IMG/VR virus record: IMGVR_UViG_3300015245_000016
Location: 1-44,873 of that record
Length of the DNA: 44,873 bases
Strand: one strand, 5' to 3'
Origin: a virus
Within the stretch, counting starts at the first letter, position 1, and every line of letters begins with the position of its first letter. Under the pieces are notes generated by a model. It was not told the DNA's origin. It worked only from the letters and a program-made list of their open reading frames with translations, and ran no database searches. The position numbers were made by a program, and so were the translations under genes. Positions 14,997 to 44,873 of this stretch are shown piece after piece.

Positions 14997-15353
14997 ATGA
15001 GCTTCCCAATCAAACCCATACTTGACCGAGTAATCGTTCAAGAAATTCCCATCGCAGACTATTATGAGCAGCCTGAAGGTTTCGAGATTGCTCTCGATAA
15101 CTCCAATATCAAAGAAGTATCTGACCGCGGCGTAGTTGTTGCTACCGGACAGTTCATGGTTGTCGGTGGCTTGCAGGTTGCAATTCCTGTCGAAATAGGC
15201 GATGTCGTTCGTTATGATGAGTTTAGCCGAACCGATCCAGTGTATTTGAACCCAGCACATAAGAACCGATCCGATCTTCCTAAGTACTATCAGATTCGCG
15301 TAGGTGACCTGAAAGGCATCGAGATCTCACCGGTGCAGGTTGCGAATGCGTGA
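14997..15353 (+). CDS. GroES-like co-chaperonin
   Basis: 118 aa. It aligns by eye to GroES: IKPILDRVIV (5-14, GroES IRPLHDRVIV), a mobile-loop region with a hydrophobic tripeptide in FEIAL (29-33, where GroES has IVL), SDRGVVVATG (42-51), VEIGDVVRY (65-73, GroES VKVGDIVIF) and YYQIRVGDLKGIE (97-109). GroES heptamers cap GroEL. Phage versions such as T4 gp31 reshape the folding chamber for the coat protein. The gene lies two genes after the coat gene, which fits that job. GGAGACATAGAGAC precedes the ATG. Confidence 0.85.
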   Translation: MSFPIKPILDRVIVQEIPIADYYEQPEGFEIALDNSNIKEVSDRGVVVATGQFMVVGGLQVAIPVEIGDVVRYDEFSRTDPVYLNPAHKNRSDLPKYYQIRVGDLKGIEISPVQVANA

Positions 15354-16982: not shown

Positions 16983-17017
16983 TTGAAGAAAGCGAAGATG
17001 ATAAGATCATAGAATGA
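16952..17017 (+). CDS. Possible 21-aa acidic leader peptide
   Basis: ATG 16952 follows GAGAC, and the frame reads an acidic peptide starting MSPQAQWDAALEESEDDK. Its TGA overlaps the endonuclease ATG at 17014 (ATGA). It could be a translated leader coupling endonuclease expression, or the stump of a gene interrupted by the mobile element. The ATG is buried in the inner hairpin. Confidence 0.3.
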   Translation: MSPQAQWDAALEESEDDKIIE

Positions 17018-17514
17018 CCCGTCCAATAATAGTTCCTATTGGCCCATCAATCGCATATGTTGAATTGACACAAGGGCAATACTCCCTGATCGACTCCGAA
17101 GACGCTGAACGCGTTGGAATCCATAATTGGTTTGCGCACCGCAGGCACGGGGAATTCTATGCGGCCACGAATATTTATAGGCCAGGTGGTGGCCAAATCA
17201 CCGTAAGCCTCCATAATTTCATAACTTCATTCAAGATGGTGGATCACCGAAATAGGGTCACCCTAGACAATAGAAAGACGAATCTTAGAGAAGCAACTAT
17301 AGCGGAAAATAATCGAAATCATAAGAATTTGCCAAGAAAACATCCTTATAAGGGAATTAGACCCAACGGGAAGAAATGGGTATCTGTTATTTTCTTTGGA
17401 AAGCCTATCTACCTTGGAACATTCATTACTGCGGAAGATGCTGCAATAGCTTATGATAAAGCTGCGGTCGAATATCATGGCGAGTTCGCCAGTCTAAACT
17501 TTGGAGGTGTTTGA
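17014..17514 (+). CDS. HNH homing endonuclease with C-terminal AP2 domain (copy 2)
   Basis: 166 aa. HNH core 66-101 (SLHNFI, MVDHRN, LDNRKTNLREAT, ENNRN) with the family's LDN-R block intact, unlike copy 1. AP2 DNA-binding domain 111-163 (PYKGIRPNGKKWVSVI, then a AAIAYDKAAVEYHGEFA helix). It shares PIGPSIAYVELT with the copy at 829. It is wedged between two tail-region genes and its last bases carry the GGAGGT ribosome site of the next gene (TGATG overlap at 17512-17516), so the insertion keeps the downstream gene working. Confidence 0.9.
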   Translation: MTRPIIVPIGPSIAYVELTQGQYSLIDSEDAERVGIHNWFAHRRHGEFYAATNIYRPGGGQITVSLHNFITSFKMVDHRNRVTLDNRKTNLREATIAENNRNHKNLPRKHPYKGIRPNGKKWVSVIFFGKPIYLGTFITAEDAAIAYDKAAVEYHGEFASLNFGGV

Positions 17515-22000: not shown

Positions 22001-22958
22001 GCCTGCGCAGTGGCAGGAGCCTGAGGTTGCCCAGAAATCTGGCTCGATTGGGACATTGGCTTATGATTTCGGTGAACAGTGGATCGTAATGGCGAACCGA
22101 AACGGAATCTATCTCTTTGATGGCGGCCAACCTCATAAGATCACTCAGGAGATTTATCAGATATGGGATTCGATCAACTGGGACGCTGGGCAGACAATCT
22201 GGATAAAGAATGATGTTGTCCATCGTCGCCTATTCGTCGGAGTTCCGATGCCGACGCCAAACTTCTGGCTACCGAATGCACCGGTGAACGCAAATCCCCT
22301 GTCTCCTAATGTAATTCTGACACTGAACTATCAAGGACTTGACTCCGGTTCAGAGGTTCAGACGGGTATGCAGATGCATACAACGATGTTTGGAACCCTG
22401 GCATCGCTCGATATGCGTCGGAAGTGGACTATCTGGCAAATTCCTTCTCCTTATGGAGCGGTAGTCGAGGCATTCAATAGTTCCACCGGCGAACTCGACG
22501 ATTTCGTCTATTTCTGTAATGGTAAAGGGAACTCAAAGGTCTACCGTCTTGATAGCACGGCACCAGATGATGATGGAACCGTTATTGATTCTCTTTATAC
22601 GACGGCCGGGTTGGTTCAGCTTGCCACACGCGCACAAAACCCAGTTCTAGGATATGGACGTACTAGAATAGGCTACATGGTCGCATTTATTGAAAGTCTC
22701 GGCCTGATCAACGTTCGGTTCTATCCAAATCGTCTACTCGGTCCTGGGACTCCACCAGCGGGATACCTCACGTGGGATGTGCCTGGTGGATTTACTCCAG
22801 GAAACCCAGCATTGAATGATGTCGAAGCTCCCTTGAACTTCGCGGCGACACGTACATTCGTTGAGTTCAGAGAGAATGATGGTCAAGGATTCAAGCTGAA
22901 TAACCTGGCACTCCACATAAAGAAAGATATCTGGAATGCGCAGAGAGGAGCTAAATAA
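19041..22958 (+). CDS. Large beta-propeller tail protein
   Basis: 1305 aa, the largest gene. The N-terminus begins with a conserved-looking start (FGGLTTLAPSETLPDGASPR). The middle holds Ig-like modules (about 445-560, VTVGSTITIAGTSVAGY type) and a jelly-roll-like carbohydrate-binding region (about 760-915). The C-terminal third has propeller-like repeats (NRNGIYLFDGGQPHKITQEI, followed by RRLFVGVPMP). This layout resembles podoviral tail hub or tubular proteins of the gp10/gp12 type, which seal the tail and bind spikes. GGGGAATCG precedes the ATG. Confidence 0.6.
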   Translation: MHGTSSGAPIVLSSFGGLTTLAPSETLPDGASPRCYDVDFLAQSVFTRSGLVSVYPPGAQSSTGARLGGAAVSSTWLNPTNILLADGNYTSRTPLTGVNPLNVTQFGFNLPSSDFITGIQVQLTGFCPVTCNIVATLFSGGFPLGEVRQIVLPASNGVMTLGSLTDTWGVTLTQSLINSSGFGIQLQASSAFTSQTAFLDSATVNIGIIAGSANYQFITTFTAQNGDIKNLSLDAIGNFWVEDVTNNPGVQTLAVSGIANNSFAVGVNGPDVEYLAFNDGFGGSDMGLQYTSRWIDKITQVGPGAAPTFTPIVTSGTTYPIVNITQPAAHSQGSSYFLQSGGPGSTSPGNVITFYYQDSTLGGQDQDLVNAINSGFAVFANVSFSGTPSPFPPTIVQILSAGIAAPPGQPRSFYYFTFNVSAIAYTYFKGSGNPGYTANWQRTLATLTTSVPVPSVTVGSTITIAGTSVAGYAGAKIVTQTPNSSSMVITGSIVTGGVATFNYSVVGGTTAPVVGQLVTITNTLNANGQLNVTEASITAASGGLTGTFSIEVSLLNFAFAPEDGLAETDGTVFCFEPNAILGTSTGGTLVFTNKGLLIDPGTYQGTVFFITRNGYYTSPAPPVTFTVTDGAGGIQVSNIPIGPPNVVMRGISLTEAGQLGVPGANFFTLPAPVDFYVLNKKYTATSFFVPDNISSSYNLFFTGAILDRAQAIDVYGYNLFNQIEIGDPGWICSYSSRNFYGLCRNKVQNFNNLSFDGGYLSAVNPLPLGWTVPMGGGQPAQTLVISSKFGNSYYIKQFTGAAQPTAGLISQTAYQDAYKTAIINANTFYSVRVTARIPSGITGASNLVVSLTDGGATVGSFTLPFSSMTPAYATFTGTLLTSVFATVPSGLTLNIYAAFTTSTTFADVEIDRIEIFDTNIPILTTTVYGSYSGLPEQVDAITGNVVFSSENFQPVNGAVVMYDTFYALKGDLNGTSLYSLQASGNLEPAQWQEPEVAQKSGSIGTLAYDFGEQWIVMANRNGIYLFDGGQPHKITQEIYQIWDSINWDAGQTIWIKNDVVHRRLFVGVPMPTPNFWLPNAPVNANPLSPNVILTLNYQGLDSGSEVQTGMQMHTTMFGTLASLDMRRKWTIWQIPSPYGAVVEAFNSSTGELDDFVYFCNGKGNSKVYRLDSTAPDDDGTVIDSLYTTAGLVQLATRAQNPVLGYGRTRIGYMVAFIESLGLINVRFYPNRLLGPGTPPAGYLTWDVPGGFTPGNPALNDVEAPLNFAATRTFVEFRENDGQGFKLNNLALHIKKDIWNAQRGAK

Positions 22959-23542
22959 TGGGGATCGGTGGAGATGATCTTCTAGCTGAAATCGAGAACA
23001 CCTATCCACGCCTTGGCGTTTACCTTCGGCATTATCTTATCCCGTCGATCCAGAAGACCGCGGAGAATGCTGCCGTCGATACAAATACTCAGATCTCTGC
23101 TCCTGCACCCCCTGAGACCGTACAGGTTACGACGGCTGGCGAGATGATGCAGGTTGTAGTCAATCATCAGTCGCCGATCACTAAAGGAGTTCACTACATC
23201 TATAGTGTGGCTACAAATCCTCAGTTTATTGGAGCACAGGTTGAAGTAAAACCGGCTACGCGTGCTCCGATTCACTTTACTTTGCCTGCCAAAAGTACAG
23301 TTCCAGACGATCCAGACCATCCAACAGCAAATAATCATCAATATTATGTTGCCGTCCAGACACAATATCCGGGATCTCCTCCTTCATCTCCTACATATTT
23401 AGGTGGCATATCTCCTGCTCCGGTAATGCTTACTCCTGCAACTCCTACTCGAATGGATATTCAGCCGGGTACGGGAACGGGAACAGCTACTAATGGTGCA
23501 CAGATTCTAGTAGGCTTAGGCAAGGCACAAGTACGCCTTTAG
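22958..23542 (+). CDS. Hypothetical virion-associated protein
   Basis: 194 aa, starting MGIGGDDLLAEIENTYPRLG. A short helical N-terminus is followed by a Pro/Thr-rich fibrous region (about 110-165). It overlaps the stop of the 1305-aa tail gene (TAATG). A tail-needle or fibre-attachment role is possible but unproven. Confidence 0.6.
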   Translation: MGIGGDDLLAEIENTYPRLGVYLRHYLIPSIQKTAENAAVDTNTQISAPAPPETVQVTTAGEMMQVVVNHQSPITKGVHYIYSVATNPQFIGAQVEVKPATRAPIHFTLPAKSTVPDDPDHPTANNHQYYVAVQTQYPGSPPSSPTYLGGISPAPVMLTPATPTRMDIQPGTGTGTATNGAQILVGLGKAQVRL

Positions 23543-23549
23543 GAGTTTT

Positions 23550-23906
23550 ATGGCTTTTTCGTATACTGGGACAGCAACTGTTTCTAGTGGGAATATAGGG
23601 ATTTTCCCCGATGGAACTTCTACAAGTGTAACTTTCGACGTTACTAAACAACCTTTCAACTTACCATTCGCAGCGGGAAACTGCCCATCTTCTGTTGTTG
23701 GGACAACCAGTTATTCTTTAGCTGCAAACCCTCCCGGAAGTCAGGCATATAAATATAACATCACATATTCTTATGACCCTCTAACTTTTGAAGTTACAAT
23801 TACATTCACCAAAGATTTAGGAAGTCTTTATGCATCTGAGCCAGATGCAATGCCTACAATATTGAATCCCGGTGTCAATATTAGTTTTCTTTATACGAGC
23901 CTTTAA
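23550..23906 (+). CDS. Small beta-rich protein
   Basis: 118 aa, starting MAFSYTGTATVSSGNIGIFP. Rich in Ser, Thr, Tyr and Gly with alternating strands. TAGGAG lies before the ATG. Last rightward gene before a strong terminator. Probably a virion surface or tail protein. Confidence 0.6.
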   Translation: MAFSYTGTATVSSGNIGIFPDGTSTSVTFDVTKQPFNLPFAAGNCPSSVVGTTSYSLAANPPGSQAYKYNITYSYDPLTFEVTITFTKDLGSLYASEPDAMPTILNPGVNISFLYTSL

Positions 23907-23925
23907 TTTTGTATTCCTCGGTTTG

Positions 23926-23956
23926 GCCCCTGTGATGAGTGCAGGGGCTTATTTTT
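23926..23956 (+). terminator. Intrinsic terminator ending the first late block
   Basis: Stem GCCCCTG (23926-23932) and CAGGGGC (23942-23948) with a 9-base loop, followed by TTATTTTTG. It stops rightward transcription before the leftward moron gene, so the second structural block needs its own promoter. Confidence 0.85.
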
Positions 23957-24464
23957 GTAATGAAATATGCTGGATCGGCGTCCCAACTGGTGCGATGTTG
24001 CGTGAGCGGGTTAAGTTACGTCCTACAGCGTAGCTCTCTGAGGCCACATCCAGCATGAGAAGCGTTCTCGCCATCTTGTGATGCCCATGTCTATTCAGAA
24101 GCCATGCTCCTCCGTAAACAGCCGCTAGCGCTCCAGCCTGGAATGCAGCTTCGGCAGCAATTGATCCACCTTTGGGTGCAATCGGGTCAGACTCATGGAA
24201 GCACCGGCAAGGATCGTTGAGCAGCTTGACTGTCGAATAGCCATCGAGTGCGCGAACAGTTGCATCTGCCGAGAACAGCGCGATGACGAACTTGGTATTG
24301 AACGTTTCAGGCTTCTGTACCGACACCGTCTTTGCGCTGGCGATCCAAGTGTCCAGATAATCCGGCTTGATGCTGGACGAAACGGTTTGTGTTTGGCCGA
24401 CAAGCACGCCAAGCAGGAAGAACGATCCGATAACTGCTGCTTTGATTATGGTAGAAGATTTCAT
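23949..24464 (-). CDS. Exported or membrane moron protein
   Basis: 171 aa, leftward inside the rightward late region. ATG 24464 follows GAGGGAACCAAA. The N-terminus (MKSSTIIKAAVIGSFFLLGV) is a signal peptide or anchor. A second hydrophobic helix lies in AAFQAGALAAVYGGAWLLN, followed by a His-rich turn (HGHHK). The arrangement resembles small exported proteins of acidobacteria, so it may be host-derived. Plausible role: change of the host envelope or superinfection exclusion. Function unproven. Confidence 0.65.
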   Translation of the reverse strand: MKSSTIIKAAVIGSFFLLGVLVGQTQTVSSSIKPDYLDTWIASAKTVSVQKPETFNTKFVIALFSADATVRALDGYSTVKLLNDPCRCFHESDPIAPKGGSIAAEAAFQAGALAAVYGGAWLLNRHGHHKMARTLLMLDVASESYAVGRNLTRSRNIAPVGTPIQHISLQK

Positions 24465-24658
24465 TTTGGTTCCCTCGAAAACAACTGTCGCACGCATTCC
24501 CTTGTGGAAATAAATAATCTAAGAATTATTTACGAAAAGTAACGTTACCAAAAAAGAACAGCCCCTTCTGTTGTGAGGGGCCGTTGCGGAGTTGTCTGCG
24601 GAGGTCGGCTGAAAGTTCTGAGGGAACCTATTCGGGACCGACTGAAGAGATCTTACCA
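24465..24658. other. Spacer between the two leftward moron genes
   Basis: No gene seen. It contains an AAATAAT/ATTATTT inverted repeat near 24510-24531, the palindrome GTAACGTTAC (24539-24548) and the leftward terminator at 24561. A GTCGG/CCGAC stem (about 24605-24640) lies next to the stop of the second moron. The palindromes may flank the promoter of the moron at 24464. Confidence 0.45.
24561..24581 (-). terminator. Leftward terminator of the second moron gene
   Basis: Stem GCCCCT (24561-24566) and AGGGGC (24576-24581). Read on the minus strand it is followed by TGTTCTTTTTTGG, a U-rich tail. It ends the gene that starts at 24901 before the moron at 24464. Confidence 0.75.
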
Positions 24659-24901
24659 TTATTCTCCTTGCATTTCTCCAAATGTATGCCATCCCGACTT
24701 CTCTAAATAAAGTTCACGCATCGATTGGCGTTCTTTTTCTGCTTCCGATACCTCATCTAGGTCATTCTGCGAAATTATTTCTATTTCCTTCCTCCATCCT
24801 TTTCGCGGAGGCCAAGAAACTCCCCAATCGGCCAATTGTTTTCTTGTCCATCCTCCGTTTTCAGTTTTCGCAGTTTCTATCTGTTCTTTTGTGAATTTCA
24901 T
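24659..24901 (-). CDS. Small phage protein with GGWTRKQLADWGVSWPP motif
   Basis: 80 aa. Begins MKFTKEQIETAKTENGGWTR and continues KQLADWGVSWPPRKGW, a pattern I associate with small phage proteins in which G-G-W-T-x-x-Q-L-x-x-W-G-x-x-W-P-P-x-x-G-W is conserved; function unknown. GGGGAGGAACT precedes the ATG. The C-terminal half is charged and helical. Its upstream flank is the structured-RNA candidate. Confidence 0.7.
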   Translation of the reverse strand: MKFTKEQIETAKTENGGWTRKQLADWGVSWPPRKGWRKEIEIISQNDLDEVSEAEKERQSMRELYLEKSGWHTFGEMQGE

Positions 24902-25244
24902 AGTTCCTCCCCGTTTTTGTTGTTCTTAAGTCTTTCTCTCTAATGCAGTTCTAGACCGTAGACGTAAAAGGTTCTGGGGTAAACCAGCTCAAAGAGTATT
25001 CTCTAAAAAGCTGATTCCAGAACTTTTACTTTCACGTGCATTATCTGAGCCGTGAGAGCAATCTAAACTGAGAACAGGGGCCGTTAGCTTCCTACGAAGG
25101 AATCCAGTATCCGGTTACGAGGCCTGTGGTCGTTAGATTGACCGTTTTCCCCGCGTAGCACTTCGGCATCAATGCCTTATAGCCACGTTTCTATTGACCA
25201 AGTATTCGGGTCAAGAAGCTAAAATATAGAGGGGAATCTCCCAT

Positions 25245-25260
25245 ACATTTTATATTCGCA
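25245..25260. repeat. 16-bp direct repeat inside the RNA candidate, copy 1
   Basis: ACATTTTATATTCGCA, identical to 25346-25361, 101 bp apart. Both copies end at the 3' side just before a C-rich arm (ACTCC or GCCCCTCC), suggesting a repeated structural motif. Confidence 0.85.
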
Positions 25261-25345
25261 ACTCCAGAGTAGACCTTAGCGGATAAATTTGCAATACTGA
25301 TGTGGAGGGGACAGTTTAAGAAACTGATATCCAGCCTGCTCCGGC

Positions 25346-25361
25346 ACATTTTATATTCGCA
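25346..25361. repeat. 16-bp direct repeat inside the RNA candidate, copy 2
   Basis: Second copy of ACATTTTATATTCGCA. Here it lies unpaired on the 3' side of the GTGGAGGGG/CCCCTCCAC helix. Confidence 0.85.
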
Positions 25362-25404
25362 GCCCCTCCACTGAGAGCCGCCATAACTGGTGGCTTTCGT
25401 GCTT

Positions 25405-25410
25405 TATACT
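25405..25410 (+). promoter_or_regulatory. -10 box of second late block, leaderless start predicted
   Basis: TATACT occupies exactly -12 to -7 relative to ATG 25417. No -35 match and no ribosome site. The hexamer equals the one before the small terminase gene, so both may be one class of late promoter. Confidence 0.55.
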
Positions 25411-25416
25411 GTGAAT

Positions 25417-25821
25417 ATGATCCGAGACATGCAGGACAGCGATCACGAAGAAATAAAAGCACTTCATAAACGCCAAGGTTTCCAGTACAATCTACCCAAG
25501 CTCGATTCTCCTCTCATCCTCGTATCCAAGGTGAGAGAAATCGATGGGCGTGTCGTGGCAGCGGAGTTTTTACGCATCACGGCAGAGACGTTCCTTCTAG
25601 TAGAAGGCAGCCCGGTTGAAAAAGGTCGCGCAATCGAGGAATTGCAGCCTGAAGTTGACCGGGAAGCTAAACAGAAGGGGCTTGAAGATTATGTCTGCGT
25701 CGTCCCTCCTGAAATTGAAGAAAGCTTCGAACCGGCACTTCGGAAGATGGGTTGGAATCCAACTCGTGACTGGAAGATGTGGTACAGGAGCTTAGATGAG
25801 ATCAGCGGTCAACCAGGCTAA
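25417..25821 (+). CDS. GNAT-like acetyltransferase-fold phage protein
   Basis: 134 aa. MIRDMQDSDHEEIKALHKRQ (1-20) is the usual start of GNAT proteins (I-R-x-M-x-x-x-D). VVAAEFLRITAETFLLVEG (44-62) matches strand 4-5, and GWNPTRDWKMWYRSL forms the C-terminal strand. The acetyl-CoA P-loop (Q/R-x-x-G-x-G/A) is not clear, so it may be non-catalytic. Such genes are common among phage structural genes. ATG 25417 is chosen from the -10 spacing; an in-frame GTG at 25411 is possible. Confidence 0.72.
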   Translation: MIRDMQDSDHEEIKALHKRQGFQYNLPKLDSPLILVSKVREIDGRVVAAEFLRITAETFLLVEGSPVEKGRAIEELQPEVDREAKQKGLEDYVCVVPPEIEESFEPALRKMGWNPTRDWKMWYRSLDEISGQPG

Positions 25822-26350: not shown

Positions 26351-27666
26351 TGGCAAATACGACACGTACACCTAACGTATTCGACCTCGACAGCGCTCCT
26401 CCGATAGTCTCATCAGGAGCAGTCTTCGACGCGCCTCCAGCGATACCAACAAGTCCTGTATGGGCTTCCAATGCTCCCGAGTTGCCCGCTCAGGCGGCTC
26501 CGGCCGTAAAGGCTGCGCCAAGTCCCTTTGAAGAGAACCTGAACCAGAACTACACGGCCCTGAATAAGCTTCGTGAACAGAAGGCCAATCCCTGGGGAAC
26601 CGAGAACAATCACCCTGGGACACTTGGCAAGATCGGCCACATCTTCTCAACAATCGGCAATATCGCCGGTGACGTCGTTGCTCCGGGCGTGATGGCACGT
26701 ATCCCCGGAACCCAACTCAATCGGGATATGATGACAGGCCAGCTTCAGGATCGCATTGAGCAGGAAGAGCAGGAAAAGGGTCAGCTCAAGAGTCAGGAAC
26801 TCAAACCACAGCTCGACCAGGCTAAGCTTGCCCTTTCACAGGAAAAGCAGAGTCAGACGCATGAACATCAGCAGACTCAAGATGAGCAACAGCTCCGTAA
26901 GGCTGGTCTGACGCGTGACGCATCTGGCGCAATCGTCCCAGTGCCTTATGAGCAGCTTGCACCGCATGAACAAGCAACAACCGATCTTCAGAATGCCCGC
27001 TCTGAAGCACAGCAGGCCCAGGAAGATTACCGGAAGGCGCAGACAGCCAATATGCCGGAACAGATGGAGATCGCCAAGGGGCGACTTGCAAACGCACAGA
27101 AGAATGCGAATACGGCTATTGCCCGTCTTGGCCTATCTCAGCAAGAGTTTGGATTCAACCAGGATAAATTCTATAATCCACAGCCAACCGCAAATGAGCG
27201 CAAATCGGGTGATCTTGCTGAATCGGCGGTCAATCAGGTTCATACGATGCGTTCGATCATCGCAGCCCATCCAGAGATGTTTGGCCCGGGCGGCGCAGCA
27301 AAGCAACAGCTTACGCGTTGGCTGTCTTCGGGTGCTGAGGATGCTGGTAAGTTCAACGCTGCTAAGGATTACCTCGCAGAGCACAGTGCGGGTGTCTTTG
27401 GCGGCCGCGGGGCATACATCATCAAGGAACTCCAGAACATCACGAATCCGAACCAAGATCCTTCGGCGCTGCGTGGAGCACTTGATCAGGCCGAACAGAC
27501 TGCAACCCACTTTGTGAATAAAGGTGCAGTGCATGGTAAGGGTGGCGGTCAATCTGAAGGTGGTGGAGGGCAATCGGCACCCAAGGTTGGTGATGTTGTT
27601 GATGGGTATAGATTTAAAGGTGGTGCTCCGCATGACAAGAATAGCTGGGAGCAGGTGAAGAAATAA
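26350..27666 (+). CDS. Probable DNA ejection/internal virion protein
   Basis: 438 aa, starting MANTTRTPNVFDLDSAPPIV. ATG 26350 overlaps the previous stop (TAATG). Residues 130-290 are a long Gln/Glu/Ala coiled coil (QDRIEQEEQEKGQLKSQELK, then AQQAQEDYRKAQTANMPEQM). The C-terminus is Gly-rich. Long coiled coils with this neighbourhood fit ejection proteins that build a channel across the envelope. Confidence 0.62.
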   Translation: MANTTRTPNVFDLDSAPPIVSSGAVFDAPPAIPTSPVWASNAPELPAQAAPAVKAAPSPFEENLNQNYTALNKLREQKANPWGTENNHPGTLGKIGHIFSTIGNIAGDVVAPGVMARIPGTQLNRDMMTGQLQDRIEQEEQEKGQLKSQELKPQLDQAKLALSQEKQSQTHEHQQTQDEQQLRKAGLTRDASGAIVPVPYEQLAPHEQATTDLQNARSEAQQAQEDYRKAQTANMPEQMEIAKGRLANAQKNANTAIARLGLSQQEFGFNQDKFYNPQPTANERKSGDLAESAVNQVHTMRSIIAAHPEMFGPGGAAKQQLTRWLSSGAEDAGKFNAAKDYLAEHSAGVFGGRGAYIIKELQNITNPNQDPSALRGALDQAEQTATHFVNKGAVHGKGGGQSEGGGGQSAPKVGDVVDGYRFKGGAPHDKNSWEQVKK

Positions 27667-28751
27667 TGGCTGAGCCCTGGAAAAACTATTCCGCACCTGC
27701 CGCACCCGAGGATTCCGGCCCTTGGTCAAAGTATGCTGCACCCGCGACCTCCGCACCGCCTCAAGTGGCACCCGCTGCGGCCTCGCCTGCGCCACAAAAG
27801 GGGTTCATGGAGACGGCGGCAGAGGGGTTTTCTCCGCAGATGGATGTCGCTAAGGGGGTGATCAAAGGGGCTGCCGGTACTTTGGCGAATGTCGACGAAG
27901 CAGCGCGCAAGCACCTTCCCGCATTCATGACAAAGCAATGGTTCGGTTTCGGCCAACCAACGGATATCGAAAAAGAGAAGCAATTCGCGCAACCACAGAA
28001 TATTGGCGAGAAGATCGGCAAGTACGGAGAGCAAGCCGGTGAGTATCTTCTTCCAGGCGGCGCAGAGGAAAAGGCAGCTTCGAGTCTTGTGAAGGCATTC
28101 CCGCAGGCAGGTAAGGCTGCTGCACCCCTGGCACGCATCGCCACCAAATCTCTAGGTTCTGGGGTTGTCGGTGCCGGTCAGGGAACTGGGTTCGGTACCG
28201 GTGCTGCTATTGGCGCTGTAGGCGGGGCATTGCCAGAAGTTACTGCTTTGGTTCCGACTAAGGCCAAGGCAGGGAAAGTATTCCAGAGCGTAATGGAAGA
28301 CGCCAAGGATCAACCGATCTCACTGACTAACTCGATGCCTTATCTCCAGCGTGTTCAGGAACTGGGTGAACGAGGTGCTACTCAGCCGCGGGTAACCCAA
28401 CAACTCTTCAGCCGTGCCGGACAGGAAAACCCGATTCTTTACCCCGAAGCACGCGATTTCGCTTCGAATCTATCCCGCATGTCGGCTGCCGACAGAATGG
28501 CGATCAATCCGACAATGGCACGAGAAGTTGGGAATGCGTCCAAAGCTTTCAATCAAGATGTCGGTGCGGCGGCATCGGCTGTAGGCCGTGGTGAAGACTA
28601 CAGCAGGGCTATGCGGGATTACGCAAGAGCCGCAGCGCTTCGAGAAGGTACTATTAAAGCAGCAAAGGCTGCTGCGAAATATGGACTACCAGCCGCAGGT
28701 GCAGGTTATGGCCTGAGCCACCTTGCACATGTAATGGTTCCAGATCGATAG
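27666..28751 (+). CDS. Probable ejection/internal virion protein
   Basis: 361 aa. The N-terminus is repetitive and Pro/Ala-rich with W-K-x-Y/WSKYAAP repeats (residues 3-35: AEPWKNYSAPAAPEDSGPWS). A glycine-rich hydrophobic stretch (GSGVVGAGQGTGFGTGAAIG, about 160-185) may insert in membranes. It starts in a TAATG overlap with the previous gene. Third member of the ejection-like set. Confidence 0.6.
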   Translation: MAEPWKNYSAPAAPEDSGPWSKYAAPATSAPPQVAPAAASPAPQKGFMETAAEGFSPQMDVAKGVIKGAAGTLANVDEAARKHLPAFMTKQWFGFGQPTDIEKEKQFAQPQNIGEKIGKYGEQAGEYLLPGGAEEKAASSLVKAFPQAGKAAAPLARIATKSLGSGVVGAGQGTGFGTGAAIGAVGGALPEVTALVPTKAKAGKVFQSVMEDAKDQPISLTNSMPYLQRVQELGERGATQPRVTQQLFSRAGQENPILYPEARDFASNLSRMSAADRMAINPTMAREVGNASKAFNQDVGAAASAVGRGEDYSRAMRDYARAAALREGTIKAAKAAAKYGLPAAGAGYGLSHLAHVMVPDR

Positions 28752-41746: not shown

Positions 41747-42028
41747 ATGGCAAATATCAGTTGGAGAAACTCGAAGATCGTCTATTACGGCCCTAACGAA
41801 TGTCTGAATTGTGGCACTGCTATCGCAAAGATGGGCGCCGAGTGGGGCTCTAATGCTTTCACCTATCCCAAAGGACCAATATATCCAAACACTGAATGGC
41901 ATCCCCACGTATGCGATCCTGTGCGCGTATATCATTGGTCGCAGGTTAGGCCATCCGATGGTATCTCCAGGACATGTATCAATGGAGATATTTACGATAT
42001 GGAAAACGATTACCCAACTCCTGAATAG
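41747..42028 (+). CDS. Small Cys/His-containing protein
   Basis: 93 aa, starting MANISWRNSKIVYYGPNECL. CLNCG with later H-P-H-V-C suggests one zinc site (C19, C22, H54, C56 approximately). Trp/Tyr rich. CAGGAGATGAAC precedes the ATG. Last gene before the structured 197-bp spacer. Confidence 0.62.
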   Translation: MANISWRNSKIVYYGPNECLNCGTAIAKMGAEWGSNAFTYPKGPIYPNTEWHPHVCDPVRVYHWSQVRPSDGISRTCINGDIYDMENDYPTPE

Positions 42029-42061
42029 TTATTTAGGCATGTAGTACTTTCGTAACTTGTG

Positions 42062-42092
42062 ACCGATACATAACACTTGTGTTGGTATCGGT
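42062..42092. promoter_or_regulatory. Nested hairpin overlapping a candidate promoter
   Basis: ACCGATAC (42062-42069) pairs with GTATCGGT (42085-42092), enclosing AACAC/GTGTT (42072-42083). TTGTGT (42077-42082), 17-base spacer, TATAAC (42100-42105) is a candidate promoter whose -35 lies in the hairpin. A second stem AATGTAG/CTACATT (42110-42137) follows the predicted start. Terminator use for the upstream gene is possible, but there is no T-run. Confidence 0.45.
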
Positions 42093-42173
42093 TGTGTAAT
42101 ATAACTAGCAATGTAGAAACCTCTCCAGGACTACATTTGACGGCAAACATTTAGGTAGCTCCTAGATGCAGTG

Positions 42174-42213
42174 GCCGAGGGACTGATAGACCTCGGCCTG
42201 CCTTCACTATCAG
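42174..42213 (+). promoter_or_regulatory. H-type pseudoknot at a ribosome site
   Basis: Stem 1 is GCCGAGG (42174-42180) with CCTCGGC (42191-42197). Its loop carries CTGATAG (42183-42189), which is complementary to CTATCAG (42207-42213) downstream. Loop lengths (2, 1 and 9 bases) fit a classical H-type pseudoknot with two 7-bp stems. Stem 2 ends on the first base of GGAAGGAAG, the ribosome site of the gene at 42226. Similar leader pseudoknots control T4 gene 32. Confidence 0.6.
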
Positions 42214-42225
42214 GAAGGAAGTAAG

Positions 42226-42615
42226 ATGAAGGAACTTTATTCACGAATCGCCAACTCGACACCTATAGATAGAACAGCGGCTCAAGTTGTTCAAAAAGGC
42301 GTCCATTATGATCCCACGCATGAAGATGTTAGGTGGTTCTCGGAATTACCTCCATGCGGAAACCCTCCCCACGGAATTCCAAACTATATCGGCATAAAGG
42401 CCGGATATTTGACCGTTATTGGATACTCTAACCGCGAAGGGGCTAAATGGGTATGTCGCTGTGTTTGCGGTCGATATGAGCATAGAAACGCTAAGTCACT
42501 GAAGAAGAACAAGCACTCCGAATATGGTCAATCGTGTACCGTTTGCAATAATACGCAGCGTGTTCGTGAAGGAAACAAGTCTTCTCTTCTGCATAAGGCG
42601 GCGAAGAATGGCTAA
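42226..42615 (+). CDS. Zinc-binding protein related to HNH-associated domains
   Basis: 129 aa. IGIKAGYLTVIGYSNREGAK, WVCRCVCGRYE and KHSEYGQSCTVCNN follow the pattern G-x-L-T-V-I-G...W-x-C-x-C-x-C-G...S-C seen in many phage zinc proteins, often attached to HNH or AP2 homing endonucleases. No HNH residues follow, so it may be a DNA-binding remnant or regulator. The pseudoknot at 42174 sits on its ribosome site. Confidence 0.68.
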   Translation: MKELYSRIANSTPIDRTAAQVVQKGVHYDPTHEDVRWFSELPPCGNPPHGIPNYIGIKAGYLTVIGYSNREGAKWVCRCVCGRYEHRNAKSLKKNKHSEYGQSCTVCNNTQRVREGNKSSLLHKAAKNG

Positions 42616-44657: not shown

Positions 44658-44839
44658 TGCTAGACGAAATATGGATGATACAAGCGAAGATGGGGAAAAG
44701 GACTTGGATGGTATTCGGATCTTCCCAGTTACCCGTATGCGATGAAGAGGAAGCGCAGAGATTGTGCAATATGTGGAAAGAATCTGCAGTAGTACCCACA
44801 GAATATAAACCTGTTAAATATTACCTTGCGAGTAAATAG
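44657..44839 (+). CDS. Small hypothetical protein
   Basis: 60 aa, starting MLDEIWMIQAKMGKRTWMVF in a TGATG overlap with dnaB. The ending EYKPVKYYLASK and a central EAQRLCNMWK recall the 78-aa gene at 37432. The gene is complete across the contig end, and its stop recurs at 41-43. Function unknown. Confidence 0.65.
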   Translation: MLDEIWMIQAKMGKRTWMVFGSSQLPVCDEEEAQRLCNMWKESAVVPTEYKPVKYYLASK

Positions 44840-44873
44840 CACCACGGCCCGACGAGTTCAAAAGGAGGAAGCA
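44797..44873. repeat. Terminal direct repeat, right copy
   Basis: Identical to bases 1-77. Joining the two copies gives a 44,796-bp circle and makes the operon that ends the window continue directly into the gene at 77. Confidence 0.9.

Follow-up and report, generated by a model that had tools for sequence, protein, structure and literature searches.

The window analysed here, a complete soil phage genome of 44,873 nucleotides (IMG/VR record IMGVR_UViG_3300015245_000016) with a 77-bp direct terminal repeat at 1-77 and 44797-44873, carries a candidate structured noncoding RNA of about 500 nt. Gene order, folding and comparison with a second phage make us confident of its anatomy: the RNA most likely runs leftward from ~25404 into a small gene, m80, its transcript ending at a terminator near 24549, and RNA and gene together form a mobile cassette placed antisense in the late block. 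As for its role, we tentatively propose, with a probability of roughly 0.35 and by analogy with the RNA origins of certain mycobacteriophages, that the window RNA serves as an RNA-type replicator or as the RNA that controls one. The persistence of phages that have neither an integrase nor RepA is poorly understood.

Folding and conservation of the noncoding region

About 515 bases separate the ATG of the leftward 80-aa gene (24901) from the start of a GNAT-like gene, placed at ATG 25417 by the starts of its orthologues. The stretch 24902-25404 is without a supported gene, and an ORF scan gave no frame longer than 52 aa wholly inside 24902-25416, in agreement with the gene-free gap between 24901 and 25417 described in an earlier note on this DNA. 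That note, written from the sequence alone, had proposed a multi-domain structured RNA of about 450 nt on account of complementary arms. The arms are found in the sequence, TAATGCA/TGCATTA, GTAAAAGGTTCTGG/CCAGAACTTTTAC and CAATCTAA/TTAGATTG among them, and folding of both strands against shuffled controls, the check it had suggested, gives minimum free energies better than those of the shuffles on the plus strand (-161.1 against -136.1 kcal/mol, z -4.24) and on the minus strand (-159.9 against -136.9, z -3.48), with 0 shuffles equalling either. When the genome is cut into 97 non-overlapping windows of 460 nt, 24941-25400 comes first on the minus strand and third on the plus strand. At the 200-nt scale the region is not unique; because several coding windows show similar z, folding taken alone is only suggestive of an RNA.

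A scan with the 80-aa m80 protein found a fragment of a different phage, L129, in which positions 1998-2502 match the noncoding region with 87% identity over 505 nt. The match stops at window 25404, and leftward the conserved unit extends into the start of the minus-strand m80 gene, so that the earlier assignment of 24941-25400 stands as a structured unit and not as to its borders. Identity is 98% in the core (24941-25170, minus strand), 66% in the 5' half and 62-66% in the m80 protein. The compensatory changes lie in the variable half, where arms are altered on both sides. In the RNAalifold consensus of the two sequences, a structure fitted to the same two sequences that it scores, 14 of the 133 pairs are changed on both sides and none is broken. 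The compensatory change that the earlier note had wished to see among homologues is therefore present, in one homologue. The fold of the window alone has 9 compensatory pairs, where permutations average 3.3 and 2 of 1000 reach 9; it is only partly correct, because 30 of its pairs are broken in L129. In the core, the helix 25059-25066/25133-25140 and the longer arms of the minus-strand fold are alternative predictions. The two-sequence comparison is, as alignment evidence, an argument for structure rather than a solution of the structure itself.

Parts of the cassette

The structured region (24902-25404) is best described from its 5' end at ~25404 on the minus strand. Its edge is formed by a border hairpin at 25372-25399, which is better paired on the plus strand and is terminator-like there, with 12 pairs and the tail TGCTTTAT; the closing hairpin with a short U-rich tail that had been noted before is thus real, and it recurs in L129 with changed sequence. 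Next comes a hairpin domain at 25301-25371, closed by GTGGAGGGG/CCCCTCCAC (arms 25302-25310/25363-25371), the closing arms of which become ATGGAGAGGG/CCCTCTCCAT in L129 as read by eye on the alignment. A 16-nt motif absent from the earlier note, ACATTTTATATTCGCA, occurs twice, as repeat M1 at 25346-25361 (TGCGAATATAAAATGT on the minus strand) and as the identical repeat M2 at 25245-25260. Both are complementary to a segment P (CTCTATATTTTAGC, 25218-25231, minus strand), which pairs over 9 nt with M1 and 9 nt with M2. In L129 segment P reads CTCTAAATCATTGC and both M copies are altered along with it, giving pairings of 7 and 9 nt; crosses of P and M between the two genomes pair over just 4-7 nt. 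A phage promoter (TATAAAAT on the minus strand) was considered for the repeat and rejected, and an RNA role is preferred because there are only two copies in the window and they change together with P. An exact 25-mer of the repeat found nothing in viral contigs, and the 16-mer found six matches there, apparently coding and with no similarity to the region beyond the 16-mer. Further downstream are a hairpin at 25194-25214 (TTGACC/GGTCAA, changed on both sides to CTCCC/GGGAG in L129) and the core, with long arms at 24941-24947/25037-25043, 24964-24977/25017-25029 and 25059-25066/25133-25140.

The RNA is followed directly by m80 (24659-24901, minus strand), an 80-aa ORF of the GGWTRxQLAxWGVxWPPxKGW family, with a Shine-Dalgarno sequence, GGGGAGGA, at ~24904-24912, in a region about half unpaired in the local fold. 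A probable intrinsic terminator of the RNA-m80 transcript lies at 24549-24583 on the same strand (CGGCCCC...GGGGCTG, then TTCTTTTTT); its loop exceeds the length allowed in the hairpin scan, and the call is one made by eye on the sequence. Beyond it is a second cargo gene, m182 (23949-24497, minus strand), a 182-aa ORF with a hydrophobic stretch at its N-terminus.

The RNA very probably belongs to the minus strand: a minus-strand ORF with a Shine-Dalgarno sequence follows it directly, the two travel together, and the terminator after m80 is a further pointer. The choice of strand, left uncertain before, thus rests on gene order and co-mobility; covariation alone does not settle it, as the counts are close (14 compensatory pairs on the minus strand and 11 on the plus strand). 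Four core pairs are kept on the minus strand through G-U alone. For a minus-strand RNA, the role in late infection suggested previously is unlikely, since the cassette would then be antisense to the late genes.

The cassette as a mobile insert

The cassette of RNA and m80 occurs in two different phages, in each of them antisense to late genes, and its context differs in L129, where it lies between what we take, from their sequences, to be portal and scaffold-like genes. The suspected tie to adjacent morons is borne out in so far as the RNA is linked to the moron-like m80 gene and the two co-occur in both phages. Relatives of the window phage were collected via the terminase and via a 1305-aa virion protein. 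In these, the counterparts of the genes that flank 23550-25416 in the window (22958-23542 on one side, the GNAT-like gene on the other) are direct neighbours or have unrelated cargo between them. The cargo hotspot, 23543-25416, lies between a 194-aa gene and the GNAT-like gene; it is at the same place in L104-L122, and the cargo of relatives consists of HNH/AP2-type genes, small ORFs or nothing. Judged from this gene order, the cassette region is an insert relative to the relatives. A near relative, L103, carries the 182-aa cargo gene at 96% identity, and its contig ends there. The m182 gene accompanies the cassette in both phages, yet in opposite relative orientation: its counterpart (L129:2848-3393, 80% identity) is inverted relative to m80.

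Searches of RNA and nucleotide collections

The earlier note had likened the region to GOLLD and ROOL and had named the Rfam models of GOLLD, ROOL, HEARO and OLE as a check. None of these matched, either at the gathering level or at E<=10, where the one hit was sub-threshold and irrelevant. The region shares with the ornate large RNAs GOLLD, ROOL and OLE (PMC12286853) its size and multiple branches, and with GOLLD and ROOL the phage setting; unlike them it has no Rfam match and is paired with a small ORF whose family is undescribed. It resembles HEARO, the HNH-associated RNA and ORF, in that the RNA is directly 5' of an ORF in a mobile unit, and differs in having no Rfam match and an 80-aa ORF without HNH or a Pfam match. 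Searches of the region by blastn gave nothing in phages and only chance matches of 17-19 nt in 46 terminase relatives. A single-sequence scan for relatives of 25390-25821 and 27666-28751 found none. R2, a model of the window/L129 core, matches those two sequences only.

The m80 protein family

The m80 protein has the signature EIEAxxTPxGGWTRxQLAxWGVxWPPPKGWR and conforms to the family signature defined here, GGxxxxxxLxxWGVxWPPxxGW, with invariant residues G17, L23, W26, G27, W30, P31, P32, G35 and W36. With a profile built from six homologues, 24 loci were detected in bacterial genomes and another 64 in viral contigs, and the family occurs in 307 plasmid records (Salmonella 150, Escherichia 107), 184 of them conjugative. 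No relative was found in Pfam, PHROGs or PDB. The AlphaFold model (overall pLDDT 76.7, pTM 0.42) predicts a short three-helix domain at residues 5-40 (pLDDT ~86) with a helical tail, and it matched nothing in PDB below E 6. By these profile and signature searches the family is undescribed and widespread, being absent from Pfam, PHROGs and PDB.

Most members are in ordinary operons, and most are without a structured upstream region. Upstream RNA structure is nevertheless enriched, with a mean z of -1.11 for 71 upstream regions of the family against -0.36 for 323 controls (p = 0.0017), and z falls below -2.5 in 18% of the former against 6% of the latter. The strongest structures are those of L219, L130, the window, L188, L176 and L131. 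Directly before an m80-type ORF, L219:1950-2210 is structured, with a perfect 16-bp closing stem, CTGAGTTGAGCAGTGG/CCACTGCTCAACTCAG. An int-alpA RNA lies near this region, at 1696-1763 on the opposite strand; as an explanation of the L219 structure it was rejected, being elsewhere and on the other strand. L192 (z -6) was discarded as a low-complexity GCC-repeat region. L216 (z -1.3) and a Saccharothrix plasmid (z -1.9) have only weakly structured upstream regions and therefore count by motif or position only.

Comparison with mycobacteriophage RNA origins

To our knowledge, RNA-based prophage origins are known from a single phage group. The regions concerned, in RedRock, LadyBird and Gladiator, express an ncRNA antisense to parA and virion genes; ~600 bp are enough for plasmid replication with no ORF or protein required, and deletion of the ori destabilises lysogens, so that it is needed for stable lysogeny (Wetzel et al. 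2020, PMC7157519). By those authors' statement such origins had been shown in one phage group only, with no named partner there (PMC7157519). In Rahalelujah, BengiVuitton and Keziacharles14, we find an unannotated m80-family ORF directly 3' of a long noncoding region beside parA and on the same strand (L131:2492, L132:2492 and L133:2492, respectively). This noncoding region shares homology with the origins of RedRock, LadyBird and Gladiator, and the ORF occupies the 3' part of the RNA-based ori. The remaining phage records with this ori gave no such ORF. In our alignment the ori core is structured, with compensatory changes in 9 of 32 pairs. The double GGCTCCATA motif of the mycobacteriophage ori is the same in L216/L218, where GGCTCCATA..GGCTCCATACGA lies upstream of an m80-type ORF; the 1.48 Mb of fetched loci contain no further occurrence of this motif.

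Like the origins of RedRock, LadyBird, Gladiator and Alma (non-RepA parABS cluster A phages, PMC7157519), the window has a structured noncoding region of ~500-600 nt, antisense within the virion-gene block, with a 5' hairpin that resembles a terminator when read on the opposite strand, a duplicated short motif and, as in Rahalelujah, BengiVuitton and Keziacharles14, an m80-family ORF immediately 3' of the region and in the same orientation. Unlike them, it has no detectable sequence or covariance-model similarity to the origins, and no parABS was found in its phage. The covariance model of the mycobacteriophage ori core, R1, reached at best 3.6 bits in the window region with filters off, which is no match, and found nothing in L129, L130, L188, L219 or L216. 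Because of this failure to match, the likeness is one of layout and partner gene, and not of shown homology. The link through the ORF is only suggestive, since most mycobacteriophage origins are without the ORF and most m80-family ORFs are without a structured upstream region. The structure of the window RNA and its antisense position within the virion block are computed, and a Fromanvirus ori is defined by transcription as well.

Discussion

In the proposal that we tentatively prefer, the RNA would allow the phage genome to replicate as a low-copy plasmid during periods without late-gene expression, much as ncRNA origins do for non-RepA mycobacteriophages. The transcript would work where it is synthesised; a persistent RNA:DNA hybrid serving as primer is suggested by the ColE1 analogy only. 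The identical M1 and M2 would compete for P, and the two exclusive folds could work as a switch or regulate copy number. The 5' hairpin may halt late transcripts before they run head-on into the cassette, and m80, encoded at the 3' end of this RNA, would serve as accessory or regulator rather than as initiator. RNA II/RNA I control of ColE1 offers a proposed analogy in its long structured RNA with alternative folds acting as a replicator, but no sequence relation to it was found and no equivalent of RNA I was identified. Among the ORFs scanned in the complete genome, some short ones of which had no match at all, no ParA/ParB, RepA, integrase or repressor was recognised. This absence and the lack of a match to R1 count against a replicator, as do two further results: the phage encodes its own DnaD-like and DnaB-like proteins, and blastn of the region against a plasmid collection gave no match. 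How common the m80 family is on plasmids speaks in favour of it.

Two rival readings carry serious weight. In the first, the RNA may be a cis-acting leader, a very large 5' UTR controlling m80 in a riboswitch-like or attenuator-like way with M1, M2 and P as the switch. Its position directly 5' of m80 on the same strand, the shared terminator, the half-unpaired Shine-Dalgarno region and the RNA-ORF order shared by both phages and part of the family are consistent with this. However, a core 98% identical beside a protein 62-66% identical means that the RNA is more constrained than the gene it would serve; in addition, the mycobacteriophage RNA works without the ORF and most m80 genes are without such a leader. 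We therefore regard a leader as possible though doubtful. The strict 3' placement of the ORF and the extreme conservation of the core could also reflect a trans-acting ribonucleoprotein, in which the RNA is processed to a free ncRNA with m80 as its protein partner, in counter-defence, superinfection control or similar; mobility and antisense placement are typical of prophage-expressed moron genes. This appears rather unlikely, as the m80 domain mostly occurs without a structured RNA and no known ribonucleoprotein family was matched by sequence, Pfam, PHROGs or fold.

A plus-strand RNA, part of a late transcript ending at 25372-25399 and serving late infection, would account for the better pairing and U-rich tail of that hairpin on the plus strand, which folds equally well and keeps its 11 compensatory pairs. 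Yet an efficient terminator there would cut off the downstream virion genes, the same hairpin is at the same place in L129 despite different flanking genes, and comparable hairpins, terminator-like on the opposite strand, are found at the 5' ends of the ori RNAs of mycobacteriophages; we consider this reading improbable. The phage setting, the branched folds and a size near the lower end of the range would fit a GOLLD/ROOL-like giant ornate RNA forming an RNA-only multimer, but the lack of even a sub-threshold Rfam match to those families and the different gene context make it very improbable indeed.

Returning to the replicator reading, its extension is more speculative: mobile RNA replicons that combine a large, structured and fast-evolving RNA with a 'WPPxKGW' microprotein gene may form a previously unrecognised class across unrelated phages (soil phages, Fromanviruses and others) and probably plasmids, with the mycobacteriophage origins as one branch and the window as another. 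We hold this class to be conceivable rather than likely. As far as the libraries searched go, the RNA family and the protein family are undescribed; the kind of system may be a known one. A small-protein signature pointing to candidate RNA origins in unrelated phages would allow such systems to be found and tested, and new small replicons might follow. If the replicator idea is wrong, what was found is still a structured RNA with covariation and a widespread family of small proteins, both of them undescribed.

Other features of the genome

A second strongly folded region, 41961-42420 (intergenic part 42029-42225), lies between small early genes; its plus-strand z is -6.7 with 18 shuffles and -3.6 with 100 shuffles, and its hairpins include ACCGATAC../GGTATCGGT and GGCCGAGG../CCTCGGCC. 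The phage also encodes a Cpn10 (GroES-like) co-chaperonin at 14997-15353, above the Pfam cut-off, and a candidate HNH/AP2-type homing endonuclease at 17014-17514, within the virion gene block and just under the Pfam cut-offs.
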